Shown one piece after another: positions 35,501-40,259 of a stretch of 64,000 bases of DNA. Within the stretch, counting starts at the first letter, position 1. Each line of letters opens with the position of its first letter. Location: the NCBI RefSeq assembly GCF_000423445.1, contig NZ_KE384018.1, positions 1-64,000 on the forward strand. Direction: 5' to 3'. Source of the stretch: Acidipropionibacterium thoenii DSM 20276. Its GTDB lineage: Bacteria; Actinomycetota; Actinomycetes; Propionibacteriales; Propionibacteriaceae. Position numbers and translations under genes: made by a program. A model generated the notes under the pieces. The model searched no databases. It worked only from the letters and a program-made list of their open reading frames with translations, and was not told the DNA's origin.

Positions 35501-37141
35501 TCACAACGGATCTGCCAGGAAGAACCGGTAGGCCGGGGAGTCCGAGGCATCGCGCCACGGGTAGCCGACGGCATCCAGATGGCTGACGAAGCCCGGATCA
35601 TCGCGGGCCCCGGCGAACCCGGCGAGCACCCGTCCGGTGTCCATCCCGAAGCTGCGGTAGTGGAACAGTGAGATGTTCCAGCGGCTGTCCAGGGTGGTCA
35701 GGAAATGCACCAGGGCGCCGGGCGCCTCGGGAAACTCGAAGCTGGCCAGCCGCTCCGCCAGATCCTGCGGTGGTCTGCCCCCGATCATGTAGCGCAGATG
35801 GGTCTTGGCGTTCTCGTCGTCGGACAGGTCGGCCACCCGGTAGCCGCCCTCCTGCAGCGCGGCGACGATCTCAGCGCGCTCCGCCGCGGTGTGCAGGGAG
35901 ACCCCGACGAAGACGGTGGCCCGCGCCGGATCGGCATACCGGTAGTTGAACTCGGTGACCATCCGGCCGCCGAGAATCCGGCAGAAGTGCAGGAAGGACC
36001 CGGGTCGCTCGGGGATCTCGACGGCGAACAGTCCCTCGCGCTGCTCGCCGAGCTGGGCCCGTTCAGCGATGTAACGCAGCGAATCGAAGTTGAGATTGGC
36101 CCCCGACAGGATGTGCGCCAACCGCTCGCCGTGCAGCCGGTGGCTCCGGACGTACTTCTTCAACCCGGCAAGGGACACCGCCCCGGCCGGCTCGGCGACC
36201 GCCCGGTTGTCGTCGAACAGATCCTTGACGGCGGCGCTGATCTCATCGGAGCCGACGGTCACGACGTCGTCGATGCACTCGCTCAGCACCCGGAAGGTCT
36301 CATCGCCGATCCGGGCCACCGCGACACCCTCGGCGAACAGTGAGACGTGGTCCAGACAGACCGGCCGGCCGGCCCGCAGGGCCGCGGCCAGGCAGGCCGA
36401 CTCCTCGGGTTCGACGCCGATCACCTGGACCTCCGGCATCAGCTGCTTGACGAGCACCGCGATGCCGGCGGCCAGCCCGCCGCCGCCGACGGGCACGAAG
36501 ATCCGGTCCAGCCGGGCATCGTCCTGGAGCAGCTCCAGTCCGATGGTCCCCTGGCCGGCGATCACCAAGGGGTCGTCGAAGGGGGCCACGTAGGTCAGCC
36601 CCTGCTCGGAGGCCATCGCGATGGCGTGGTCCTTGGCCTGGTCGAAGGCGGTGCCCGACAGCACCACCTCCCCGCCGAGCTGGCGGACGGCGTCCACCTT
36701 GATCGACGGGGTGCTGGTCGGCATCACGATGACGGCGCGGATCCCGAGTCGGGCTCCCGACAGCGCGACCCCCTGGGCGTGGTTGCCGGCCGAGGCGGTG
36801 ACCACACCGGCGTCTTTCTGCGCCTGGGTCAGCGAGCGCATCTTGTTGTAGGCGCCGCGGATCTTGAAGGAGTGCACCGGCTGGCGGTCCTCCCGCTTGG
36901 CCAGCACGGTGTTGTCGAGTCGGTCCGACAGCCGCTCCATCGGTTCCAGCGGGGTCTGGACGGCGACCTCGTAGACCGGGGCCCGCAGCACCGCGCGCAG
37001 GTAGTCCTGGGCGCTCATCGGCGTCGCCGACTCCGGGCTGACCGGTGGCCGGCTGGATGGTGCGGGACTGGCCTGTGCGGGACTGGCCTGTGCGGGACTG
37101 ATGGGCTCACGCCTGGTTGGCGTGGAGGGCTCGGCCGTCAT
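35501..37141 (-). CDS. ilvA: Threonine ammonia-lyase, biosynthetic type
   Basis: IlvA deaminates threonine to 2-oxobutanoate, the first step to isoleucine. The PLP Lys lies in PVHSFKIRGAYNKM, the Gly-rich phosphate loop is VPVGGGGLAAGIAV, and TASAGNHAQGVALSG is typical. Two C-terminal ACT-like regulatory repeats (EIPERPGSFLHFCRI and EFPEAPGALVHFLT) indicate isoleucine feedback control. I took the ATG at 37141, three bases after the ilvD stop, giving 546 residues. An ATG at 37018 (505 residues) is a serious alternative, because the extra 41 residues are a low-complexity Ala/Ser/Pro tail from a tandem repeat. Confidence 0.9.
   Translation of the reverse strand: MTAEPSTPTRREPISPAQASPAQASPAPSSRPPVSPESATPMSAQDYLRAVLRAPVYEVAVQTPLEPMERLSDRLDNTVLAKREDRQPVHSFKIRGAYNKMRSLTQAQKDAGVVTASAGNHAQGVALSGARLGIRAVIVMPTSTPSIKVDAVRQLGGEVVLSGTAFDQAKDHAIAMASEQGLTYVAPFDDPLVIAGQGTIGLELLQDDARLDRIFVPVGGGGLAAGIAVLVKQLMPEVQVIGVEPEESACLAAALRAGRPVCLDHVSLFAEGVAVARIGDETFRVLSECIDDVVTVGSDEISAAVKDLFDDNRAVAEPAGAVSLAGLKKYVRSHRLHGERLAHILSGANLNFDSLRYIAERAQLGEQREGLFAVEIPERPGSFLHFCRILGGRMVTEFNYRYADPARATVFVGVSLHTAAERAEIVAALQEGGYRVADLSDDENAKTHLRYMIGGRPPQDLAERLASFEFPEAPGALVHFLTTLDSRWNISLFHYRSFGMDTGRVLAGFAGARDDPGFVSHLDAVGYPWRDASDSPAYRFFLADPL
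37061..37100. repeat. 15-base tandem repeat in the ilvA 5' end
   Basis: TGCGGGACTGGCCTG is repeated 2.7 times. In the ilvA frame it encodes repeated PAQAS units. The unit length is a multiple of three, so copy-number changes would keep frame. Confidence 0.65.
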
Positions 37142-37143
37142 CG

Positions 37144-39159
37144 TCAGGCCTGGGTGGCGGAGAACGCGTGGGCCACGGAGTCCTCGGCGCCCGGAGTCGA
37201 GGCTGCGGCGGCGGTGCTGGCGGAAGTCGTGCCCAGGGGTGCGTCCTGGGGGGCTGCAGTCGGCTCTGCCGGGGCACCGGCGGCCAGCGGTACCGGCGTC
37301 ACCTGGGACAGGTCGCGCACCCCGCCGCGGTCGGCCGAGGAGGCCAGCAGCCCGTAGGCCTTCAGAGCGGTGGAGACGGCGCGGGTGCGGGCCACGTGCG
37401 GGGTCCAGGCGGCCGCCCCGCGTGCCTCCTCCTCGGCCCGGCGGCGGGCCAACTCGGCATCGGAGACATCGAGCCGGATGCTGCGGTTGGGGATGTCGAT
37501 CGAGATGGTGTCCCCGGAGTGCACCAACCCGATGAGGCCACCGGAGGCCGCCTCGGGGGAGACGTGACCGATCGACAGCCCGGAGGTGCCTCCGGAGAAC
37601 CGGCCGTCGGTGAGCAGGGCGCACTCCTTGCCCAGGTGCATCGACTTGAGGTAGCTGGTGGGGTACAGCATCTCCTGCATGCCCGGTCCGCCCTTGGGGC
37701 CCTCGTGGCGGATCACCACGACGTCGCCGGCCTTGACCTGCTTGCCGAGGATGCCGTTGACGGCGTCCTCCTGAGCCTCGTAGACCACCGCGGGTCCTGT
37801 GAAGGTGAGGATCGAGGCGTCCACCCCGGCGGTTTTCACGATCGAACCGTTGACGGCGATGTTGCCGTAGAGCACCGCCAGCCCGCCGTCGGCCGAGTAG
37901 GCATGGTCGATGTCGCGGATGCAGCCGTTGGTCCGGTCGGTGTCCAGGCTCTCCCAGCGCGAGGCCTGGGAGAACATCCGGGTGGTGCGGACCCCTCCCG
38001 GGGCCGCCGAGTACAGCCTTCGCACAGCCTCATCAGGATTGCCCCGCAGGTCGAAGTGGGCCAGCTCATCGCCCATCGTGGCGGGATTGCCGTCGGGGGA
38101 CCACACGGTGGAGGTGGTGGTGTCGATCAGCCCGCCGCGGTTCAGCTCGGAGACGATGCCCAGCACCCCGCCGGCGCGATGGACGTCCTCGACGTGGAAG
38201 ACGTTGGTGGAGGGAGCCACCTTGCACAGATGCGGGACCCTGCGCGACAGCGCGTCGATGTCGGACATCGTGAAGTCGACCAGGCCCTCCTGGGCTGCGG
38301 CCAGCAGGTGCAGCACGGTGTTGGTGGAGCCGCCCATCGCGATGTCCAGGCTCATGGCATTGGAGAAGGCGGCCTTGGTGGCGATCGAGCGGGGCAGCAC
38401 CGAAGCGTCGTCCTGGTCGTACCAGCGCTTGGCGATCGCCACGATCTGGCGGCCGGCCTGCTCGAACAGGGCCTTGCGGTCGGCGTGGGTGGCCAGCAGC
38501 GAGCCGTTTCCCGGCAGGGACAGGCCGAGGGCCTCGGTGAGGCAGTTCATCGAGTTGGCGGTGAACATCCCCGAGCAGGACCCGCAGGTCGGGCAGGCAT
38601 TGGCCTCCATCAGCTCCAGGTCGGCGTCGGAGGTGCTCTGGTCCCCGGCGGCCACCATGGCGTCGATGAGATCAAGCTTGCTGACGCCGTCGGACAGCGT
38701 CACCTTTCCGGCCTCCATCGGCCCGCCCGAGACGAAGATGGTCGGGATGTTGAGGCGAAGGCTGGCCATCAGCATGCCGGGGGTGATCTTGTCGCAGTTG
38801 GAGATGCACACCAGGGCGTCGGCGCAGTGGGCGTTGCACATGTACTCCACCGAGTCGGCGATCAGCTCGCGGCTGGGCAGCGAGTAGAGCATCCCGTCGT
38901 GGCCCATCGCGATGCCGTCGTCGACGGCGATGGTGTTGAACTCCTTGGCGACCCCGCCGGCGGCCTGGATCTGCTCGGCGACGATCTTGCCCACGTCACG
39001 CAGGCCGACGTGGCCGGGCACGAACTGGGTGAAGGAGTTGGCGATGGCGATGATCGGCTTGCCGAAGTCGCCGGCCCCCATCCCGGTGGCGCGCCACAGG
39101 GCGCGGGCGCCGGCCATCGCGCGGCCGGAGGTGCTGGTTGCAGATCGCAGGGTGGGCAT
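37144..39159 (-). CDS. ilvD: Dihydroxy-acid dehydratase
   Basis: IlvD dehydrates dihydroxy-isovalerate and dihydroxy-methylvalerate in valine and isoleucine synthesis. The 671 residues include the iron-sulphur ligands in [12 protein letters not shown] and [20 protein letters not shown], and the family motif [20 protein letters not shown]. The enzyme normally ends near RDLSQV, so the last 50 residues are an extra Ala/Pro/Thr-rich tail. AGGAGA precedes the ATG. It leads an ilvD-ilvA operon behind a leader peptide and attenuator-like structures (39308-39406). Confidence 0.95.
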
Positions 39160-39307
39160 GTCGTCTCCTAGTTGACCGGTGGTGCGTCAGCCGCCGGTCG
39201 AGCGGAACAGGTGTCGGCGGGGCCGTACGGGACTGTCGTCGGGGCCGTCGTCAGGATGTCTGGGATGTGGGTGGATGAGAACAGATACAGGTGCGCAGAT
39301 ACAGGAA

Positions 39308-39378
39308 CGCCCTCCGTCCGTCAGGAGGGAGGGCGCGCGGTCTCGTCTGCGAGGGCGGTGGGCTTCAGGCCGCGCGCC
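39308..39378 (-). promoter_or_regulatory. Putative transcription attenuator of ilvDA
   Basis: Two mutually exclusive pairings exist on the minus-strand transcript. The early one joins 39370-39378, inside the leader peptide's last codons, with 39332-39340: nine perfect G/C pairs. The late one joins 39308-39319 with 39324-39335: eight pairs, one G-G mismatch, three pairs, loop of four, forming a terminator-like hairpin. They share 39332-39335. A ribosome finishing the leader would mask the first segment and allow the terminator; a ribosome stalled at the Val-Leu-Ile codons would leave it free. The U-run after the late hairpin is poor. The mechanism is inferred. Confidence 0.65.
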
Positions 39379-39406
39379 GACGAATAAGAACTCGACCGGA
39401 ATGCAT
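39365..39406 (-). CDS. Branched-chain leader peptide MHSGRVLIRRRAA
   Basis: A 13-codon open frame 206 bases upstream of ilvD with consecutive Val, Leu and Ile codons (GTT CTT ATT), exactly the three products of the pathway. Basic residues and a stop follow, as in leader peptides of actinobacterial ilv and leu operons. TAGTCT lies seven bases before the ATG and there is no SD, so the leader message is probably leaderless. The peptide end overlaps the first pairing segment of the attenuator. Confidence 0.7.
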   Translation of the reverse strand: MHSGRVLIRRRAA

Positions 39407-39500
39407 GGTCTGGAGACTACCAGCCGTGGTCGCGGGTCGGGATCTGACTTTCAGGATGTGGACGGGGCAGCCCCGGGAGCCCGGTCGGCCACCGCGTCCT

Positions 39501-40259
39501 TCACGGATGAAGGTGGCCCAGCACCGGAATCAGGGGTGACATCAGTCCGGCGCTCATCCACGCCATCCCCAGACCCATCGCGGCGTCGAACAGCCCGCTC
39601 AGCCGGGCCGACCCTGCGGTGGTGGGTGTGGTGTGGCAGCAGGCCGGTTGGCCCGGATGGGGAGGGCGCCCGGTGATTACGCGCACCAGTCCCGAGATGC
39701 CGAGGACCAGCAGGCAGGCCATCAGCGGCAGGCCGACACCGGTGACGAGGGTGAGTCCCGAGGGTCCGGTGGTTGCTGCCGGGGACGCCGGGTGACCCAT
39801 CCCTGCCATTCCGGAGTGGCCGCCGCTCGGTCGGGCTGCAGCGGCCCCGGTCATCGACATCGCGGTATGGCTGGCCATCGAGGCCAGATGCCAGACCATC
39901 GCCGCGAACATCGCGGTGTGCCCCACTGCCAGCCAGGAGATCTTCCAGATCGCCATCGCCGCCATCCAGATGGCGCCGGCAGCCATCACGGCGATGAGTG
40001 TCGGACCTCTGAGTGCCTCCGGCAGGGCGGTCCACCAGGCCCTCGGAACCATCACGAGCATCACGATCGACATCACCAGGTGGAAGGACTGCGAGATGGC
40101 GATCGGGGTGCGGTGGGCGAGTGGCTCGGCGGGGGCCCAGCTGGCCGGCAGATCGACACCGACAGCGGCCAACAGGTCACGAGCCGACCAGAGAATGCAC
40201 CAGATGAACAGCACGGTGAGGCCTATGAAGGTCACCGGGGTGGTGGTGAGGGTGAACAT
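39501..40259 (-). CDS. DUF5134-like polytopic membrane protein, His/Met-rich
   Basis: The function is unknown. The 252 residues have six or seven hydrophobic segments and match the actinobacterial DUF5134-type layout. A loop near residues 135-160 is rich in His and Met (HTAMSMTG, GGHSGMAGMGHP), and the protein ends GHLHP with a preceding CCHTTP. These are possible copper or other soft-metal contacts, but that is inference. The ATG at 40259 has AAAGGAG upstream. It is divergent from mycothione reductase across about 100 bases. Confidence 0.75.
   Translation of the reverse strand: MFTLTTTPVTFIGLTVLFIWCILWSARDLLAAVGVDLPASWAPAEPLAHRTPIAISQSFHLVMSIVMLVMVPRAWWTALPEALRGPTLIAVMAAGAIWMAAMAIWKISWLAVGHTAMFAAMVWHLASMASHTAMSMTGAAAARPSGGHSGMAGMGHPASPAATTGPSGLTLVTGVGLPLMACLLVLGISGLVRVITGRPPHPGQPACCHTTPTTAGSARLSGLFDAAMGLGMAWMSAGLMSPLIPVLGHLHP

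Follow-up and report, generated by a model that had tools for sequence, protein, structure and literature searches.

Leader-peptide control of branched-chain amino acid (BCAA) operons is a textbook mechanism. Among actinobacteria, ilvB leader control has been described in Corynebacterium, Mycobacterium and Streptomyces, although in S. coelicolor it is open to doubt, whereas the leuA leaders do not count as established attenuators in the consulted part of a 2005 survey (PMC1262725). A preliminary description of the locus studied here had taken both kinds of leader as known, which is borne out for ilvB and not for leuA. The ilvBNC operon of Corynebacterium glutamicum, an instance of the ilvB-II motif, has a BCAA-rich leader, MTIIRLVVVTARRLP, which is made without a ribosome-binding site according to the title of Morbach et al. 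(2000), as cited in PMC11857589 and PMC10272879. In the excerpts of the latter two papers its antiterminator and terminator share a short boundary, the control codons lie close to the antiterminator strand, and the terminator stem is followed by uridines. The Mycobacterium tuberculosis ilvB1NC attenuator has a BCAA-coding upstream ORF with LVVI control codons and a U-tract; a ribosome sitting at the stop of this ORF covers about 26 bases, which keeps the antiterminator from pairing, as far as the excerpt of PMC13236596 goes. Leader-peptide attenuators directly upstream of ilvD are found in Bacillota, at Staphylococcus aureus ilvD and at Listeria monocytogenes Rli60 (PMC5794164, PMC5864092, both in part); there the operon is ilv-leu, a ribosome-binding site precedes the leader, and the S. 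aureus terminator carries a poly-U tail. The LEU element of actinobacterial leuA is a conserved pseudoknot upstream of that gene.

No actinobacterial ilvD leader is described in the titles and abstract openings listed by a full-text literature search, from whose coverage most subscription papers fall outside, and an earlier description is possible. The word ilvD is absent from the main texts of the 2005 survey (PMC1262725) and of the 2023 ilvB-II paper (PMC10272879). Here we analyse the region upstream of ilvD-ilvA (ilvDA) in a stretch of DNA of 64,000 nucleotides (the window). The element found there resembles C. glutamicum ilvBNC in its actinobacterial setting, its BCAA-rich leader, the likely lack of a ribosome-binding site, the short boundary common to its two structures and the closeness of the control codons to the antiterminator strand; it differs from it in standing before ilvDA, in having no proper U-tract, and in sequence and peptide. 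It shares the BCAA-coding upstream ORF with M. tuberculosis, unlike whose attenuator it lacks a proper U-tract and precedes other genes than ilvB1NC; it shares the position directly upstream of ilvD with the two Bacillota; and it is set apart from the LEU element by standing before ilvD. We consider it likely that this element is a leaderless, ribosome-controlled attenuator of ilvDA that senses Ile, Leu and Val.

Results

The features of the locus are as follows.

39414-39422, minus strand: extended -10 box TGG-TAGTCT, with TANNNT in 10/10 genomes
39365-39406, minus strand: leader ORF MHSGRVLIRRRAA, 13 codons and TGA, with a homologous leader in 10/10 genomes
39383-39391, minus strand: putative control codons GTT-CTT-ATT (Val6-Leu7-Ile8), rare codons, Ile8 kept
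39370-39378, minus strand: antiterminator 5' strand GGCGCGCGG, inside codons 10-13 of the leader, invariant in 10/10 genomes
39332-39340, minus strand: antiterminator 3' strand CCGCGCGCC, with four bases in common with the hairpin
39308-39335, minus strand: terminator-like hairpin without a proper U-tract, conserved stem
39165-39169, minus strand: Shine-Dalgarno sequence AGGAG of ilvD, read from the sequence
37144-39159, minus strand: ilvD, dihydroxy-acid dehydratase (NF009103 1119 bits, TIGR00110 793 bits; PF00920, PF24877)
35501-37141, minus strand: ilvA, biosynthetic threonine ammonia-lyase (TIGR01124 765 bits; PF00291, PF00585)

The leader ORF runs from an ATG at 39406-39404, 247 bases upstream of the ilvD ATG, to a TGA at 39367-39365 on the minus strand. 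The preliminary description had reported a 13-codon frame with Val, Leu and Ile codons in a row, and on re-reading the codons are present (GTT-CTT-ATT, 39391-39383, minus strand), as are all the coordinates and counts it gave for the leader, the pairing, the hairpin and TAGTCT. The three codons are rare in the eight window genes counted, ilvD and ilvA among them (GTT in 4 of 306 Val, CTT in 7 of 379 Leu, ATT in 3 of 177 Ile codons), so that three rare codons follow one another in the window leader. T-ending codons are decoded by the same tRNAs as C-ending ones, and C-ending codons (GTC, CTC, ATC) occupy some of the control positions in other genomes; the T-ending control codons may serve to slow decoding, to keep RNA structure weak, or to do both.

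Downstream, the ilvA ATG lies 2 bases after the ilvD stop in the window, and an ilvA match adjoins ilvD in 10/10 loci. The hairpin is separated from the ilvD ATG by 148 bases in the window, 70 in G004 and 27-47 in the other eight genomes; the window gap (39307-39160) contains a stretch that is C-rich and G-poor by eye. Upstream of the leader the window has a gene on the minus strand (39501-40259) with a below-cut-off DUF5134 match, and homologues of it (40-74% identity) occupy the same place in the other nine of the ten loci, in two pieces in G003. The ilvD gene of that genome (G003:C5:112874-114830; first part L006) is itself split into two overlapping frames, which points either to a frameshifted gene or to a fault in the assembly.

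The distribution of the element was followed with a covariance model built from six genomes and searched, with stricter filters, in 198 genomes of the family, which we take to be Propionibacteriaceae. Matches above 50 bits were returned by ten genomes (52 to 128 bits), the next best reaching 29 bits; the model was built from six of these ten, whose matches follow by construction, and four (G107, G110, G112 and G113) are independent. These ten are all five examined genomes of the window's genus (g1, presumably Acidipropionibacterium) and five of the nine of a second genus (g13, presumably Cutibacterium-like). Any match at E 1 or better was obtained in 101 of the 198 genomes, and the five weak-match loci inspected (L122, L123, L124, L128, L138) have no such leader. 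The element stands directly before ilvD-ilvA in 10/10 examined genomes of the two genera with this ilvD; in g13, ilvD occurs in the same five of nine genomes as the element. The other four (G106, G108, G109, G111) gave no ilvD match at E 0.001, and the element model scored 18 bits in G108 and 12 bits in G109, with neither G106 nor G111 among the matches listed. A close ilvB is likewise without a match in these four at E 1e-150. Since ilvD and the close ilvB are both missing, the pattern suggests that BCAA synthesis was lost together with its leaders.

An alignment across relatives had been proposed as the check on the first reading of the locus, which was to fall if the peptide or the stems proved unconserved. 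The short peptide recurs in 10/10 genomes of two genera, and peptide and stems are both conserved. The leader reads MHSGRVLIRRRAA in the window, MNTGRVLIRRRAV in G004, MNTGRVLISRRAA in G002, MNTGRVLISRRAV in G001, MNTGRVLIRRRAA in G003, MMNGWSLITRRAV in G016 and G107, MMNGWILITRRAA in G112, MMNGWIFITRRAA in G110 and MTIGLLIIDRRAAL in G113. Codon 8 is Ile, always ATT, in 10/10 genomes; codon 7 is branched-chain in nine and Phe in one; codon 6 is branched-chain in eight and Ser in two. The resulting pairs at codons 6-7 are VL, SL, IL, IF and LI. All ten leaders thereby have branched-chain codons at 6-8, two in G016, G107 and G110 and three elsewhere. Judged from the aligned leaders, the branched-chain bias at the variable codons 6-7 is the pattern expected of control codons.

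Upstream of the leader, TAGTCT occupies 39419-39414 in the window, leaving 7 bases between it and the leader ATG, as noted in the preliminary description. A TANNNT motif lies 6-8 bases 5' of the leader ATG in 10/10 genomes, is preceded by TGN in 9/10, and TGNTANNNT is found in 9/10. TAnnnT is the reported vegetative -10 of Propionibacterium acnes, in which leaderless mRNAs are common (PMC3848588, in part). Given the 7-base spacing, transcription should start at the leader ATG or within about 2 bases of it. The conserved spacing, together with the P. acnes -10 and its leaderless mRNAs, indicates that the leader transcript is probably leaderless and translated as such; C. glutamicum ilvBNC provides a precedent for synthesis of a leader peptide in the absence of a ribosome-binding site. 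A sigma-70 promoter scan gave no match, and a -35 sought by eye upstream of the leader could not be established.

The two RNA structures described earlier are confirmed at every position. GGCGCGCGG and CCGCGCGCC form nine perfect pairs in the window (39370-39378 with 39332-39340), and the hairpin at 39335-39308 has 12 positions (8 pairs, one C/C mismatch and 3 pairs), with an extra G-U pair at 39336/39307. The two share the four bases 39332-39335. Including the G-U pair, the hairpin has a folding energy of -22.5 kcal/mol in the window, within a range of -19.7 to -23.2 across the ten genomes. The antiterminator is paired in 89 of 90 cells across the ten, the single mismatch being in G107, and the 8 outer pairs of the hairpin are formed in 80 of 80 cells, with 3 one-sided G-U changes and 0 double changes; in G113 the tip of the hairpin is rebuilt and still closes. 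The search for covarying stems that the preliminary description had called for gave none: neither stem has compensatory changes in the ten genomes, and because the pairing strands are nearly invariant, covariation speaks neither for nor against the stems. A different indication comes from the coding constraint on GGCGCGCGG. The fourfold third positions of its codons CGG CGC GCG are invariant across the ten genomes (3/3), against only 22 of the 183 ilvD fourfold sites examined in the same genomes, which would speak for selection on the RNA, three being a small number of sites. The heptamer CGCCCTC occurs twice in this region of the window (39356-39350 and 39335-39329), giving the 3' half of the hairpin a second possible partner; by eye, this repeat is also present in G004 and absent from the other eight genomes.

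The response of these structures to translation was modelled by folding the RNA of each of the ten genomes while a ribosome was placed at one leader codon after another. The ribosome was represented by masks extending to its limits of +11 or +15 from the P-site codon, and antiterminator probabilities refer to a transcript ending just past the antiterminator 3' strand. With the +11 mask, the probability is 0.76-1.00 for codon 6 and 0.74-0.89 when codon 8 occupies the A site; it drops to 0.06-0.55 for codon 9 and does not exceed 0.02 for codon 10, codon 11 or the stop. The +15 mask gives 0.58-0.77 at codon 7 and 0.00-0.44 at codon 8. In these models the switch point falls at the branched-chain codons, with the invariant Ile8 at its edge. 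The earlier proposal that stalling on Val, Leu or Ile codons frees the first pairing is therefore supported for the truncated transcripts under the +11 mask, but a stall at Ile8 frees the strand poorly at +15. Equilibrium folding of the full-length RNA does not support a choice of stem by ribosome position: for ribosomes placed at codons 6-8, pairing at the hairpin base keeps a probability of 0.77-1.00 in nine genomes and 0.20-1.00 in G001. Since the hairpin prevails at equilibrium once the RNA is complete, switching must be kinetic, and the antiterminator must form first and persist. In the ribosome-free fold, the antiterminator probability is 0.97 in the window, 1.00 in G016, 0.00 in G002 and 0.09 in G107.

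The hairpin had been called terminator-like, and its stem is conserved, but intrinsic termination is unproven, as a proper U-tract is missing. The first bases 3' of the hairpin are TTCCTG (three genomes), TTTCGC, TTTCTC, TCGTCA (three), TTGTCA and TCGTCG. Within ten bases after the hairpin the longest T run is 1-3 in 10/10 genomes, and the best 8-base stretch has 3-5 T, with five only in G001, the one genome that would satisfy the rule of the terminator scan. That scan found no terminator in the window and did not call the hairpin. Measured against the classical attenuator, in which a U-tract follows a GC-rich hairpin, the element has the hairpin and no proper U-tract, with at best a weak one in G001 only. 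At the ilvB leaders of these ten genomes, by comparison, the T run is T6 in nine cases and T5 in one. Termination at the ilvD-leader hairpin, which we infer, is accordingly the weakest step of the attenuator reading: the hairpin may end transcription alone, with the help of NusG or Rho, or act otherwise.

Leader translation might control ilvDA with no intrinsic terminator at all, the hairpin serving as a pause or barrier and Rho or NusG being needed. We regard this as unlikely, while noting that it accommodates the missing U-tract in at least nine of the ten genomes, as well as the 148 bases that follow the hairpin in the window with their C-rich, G-poor stretch. Rho has also been proposed for actinobacterial leader peptides without terminators, in the consulted part of PMC1262725. 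In eight of the other nine genomes, however, the 27-47 bases between hairpin and ilvD ATG would hardly accommodate a Rho site, and the strong conservation of the hairpin also speaks against this reading.

Control might alternatively be exerted on translation, if the alternative folds hid or exposed the Shine-Dalgarno sequence of ilvD. The 5' half of the hairpin includes CCTCC, a possible partner for AGGAG, and in most genomes the ilvD start is close by, but the distance between hairpin and ilvD ATG varies from 27 to 148 bases. Moreover, folding shows no consistent opening of the site: the antiterminator state changes its accessibility by more than 0.1 upwards in one genome of the ten (G107) and downwards in four, with little change in five. 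Sequestration of the Shine-Dalgarno sequence is on these grounds very unlikely.

The possibility that a chance ORF and chance GC-rich pairings happen to lie upstream of ilvD is suggested by the single sequence, which barely appears to beat chance. The fold of the region has a z-score of only -1.23, with 23 of 200 shuffles folding as well. An ORF scan of both window strands asked for TANNNT, a gap of 6-8 bases, and a start codon opening a short ORF with three consecutive V/L/I; it finds one place only, the ilvD leader, whereas shuffled 64-kb strands give a mean of 0.23 each (100 shuffles). What puts the element beyond chance is its conservation. It is kept in 10/10 genomes while the fourfold sites of ilvD largely change, and its codon swaps are mostly among branched-chain residues. 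The scan recovers seven of the ten true leaders, being blind to those without three consecutive V/L/I, and finds no comparable leader (0/24) in the other ilvD upstream regions scanned (L007-L030, from other genera of the family and order; L025 with only 225 bases upstream). These 24 loci come from 28 further genomes with the same long ilvD type, to which the comparison is confined, a more distant ilvD type (about 40% identity) being left out. Nor did the scan match in the four upstream regions (L031, L032, L043, L063) taken from at least 80 mostly proteobacterial protein-scan loci. Conservation in the main refutes a chance origin, whose probability we put close to nil.

A riboswitch or T-box in place of a leader-peptide device would equally fit a conserved RNA structure in front of an amino-acid biosynthesis operon, but it is exceedingly improbable here, since what is conserved is an ORF carrying control codons and no Rfam family matched anywhere in the window at gathering score, a permissive search of the element yielding three matches far below gathering scores, none of them relevant.

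Discussion

The region upstream of ilvDA has the codon cluster, the conserved ORF, the two mutually exclusive pairings and the downstream BCAA genes that characterise the broad leader-peptide kind of BCAA operon, to which we assign it. The deficient U-tract sets it apart from the classical attenuators with an intrinsic terminator. As far as can be read from sequence, the element appears to be a further, well-conserved example of a long-known mechanism.

Under the leaderless attenuator that we favour, transcription would begin on or immediately beside the leader ATG, and no ribosome-binding site would be needed for translation of the leader. With ample charged Val-, Leu- and Ile-tRNA, the ribosome would reach the stop codon and cover GGCGCGCGG in the last codons of the leader; the downstream hairpin would then form, and less transcription would proceed into ilvDA. 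When the charged tRNAs are short, the ribosome would halt at codons 6-8, and GGCGCGCGG would pair with CCGCGCGCC before the 3' half of the hairpin is made. The hairpin would thereby lose its base, and RNA polymerase would read through into ilvDA. Ile8 may be the main sensor, being invariant and the last codon able to free the strand under the tighter footprint, and this would fit the role of ilvA as the isoleucine-specific enzyme of the pair.

A more specific form of this mechanism can be put forward tentatively, although we think it doubtful as a whole. The antiterminator strand of the leaderless attenuator would be written in the last leader codons, its output would pass through Rho, NusG or a paused RNA polymerase, and the swaps at codons 6-7 (Val-Leu, Ser-Leu, Ile-Leu, Ile-Phe, Leu-Ile) would retune the device between genera around a fixed Ile at the edge of the footprint.

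The ilvDA element is accompanied by other BCAA leaders. In the window's genome ilvB is preceded by a leader, MNGLVVLS (L153), located 245 bases ahead of the ilvB match at G000:C13, 24584-26257; the hairpin downstream of this leader carries a T6 run. Leaders with BCAA codons stand before the close ilvB in all ten genomes, those of the other nine being VNGLVVLS (twice), VNGLIVLS, VNGLVVLIVT, MSGQLLVIG, MNGQLLVIG (twice), MSGQFLVIG and MNGPHASNLLVID. A leuA leader, examined in the window's genome only, begins with GTG and reads (V)ARVLLLSRRSGAR, again with BCAA codons (L156, 173 bases before the leuA match, G000:C2, 370331-372001); with TACCAT 7 bases upstream, it is probably leaderless too. The ilvD leader resembles both as a short ORF with BCAA codons and differs from both in sequence, and from the ilvB leader in the T6 run of the latter's hairpin. 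The siting of control at ilvD-ilvA had been singled out as notable. The element is indeed there, but it supplements the ilvB and leuA leaders and does not replace them, so that control of ilvDA extends a set.

The design is compact and probably leaderless, with its invariant Ile codon at the edge of the footprint, and offers a natural series for relating codon-to-stem distance to the amino acid sensed, and the element is suited to asking whether actinobacterial attenuators need a U-tract. For the bacteria that carry it, the element probably means that the ilvDA enzymes are made mainly when isoleucine and valine run short. A separate control point on ilvD-ilvA, beside those on ilvB and, in the window's genome, on leuA, could allow each branch to respond separately.
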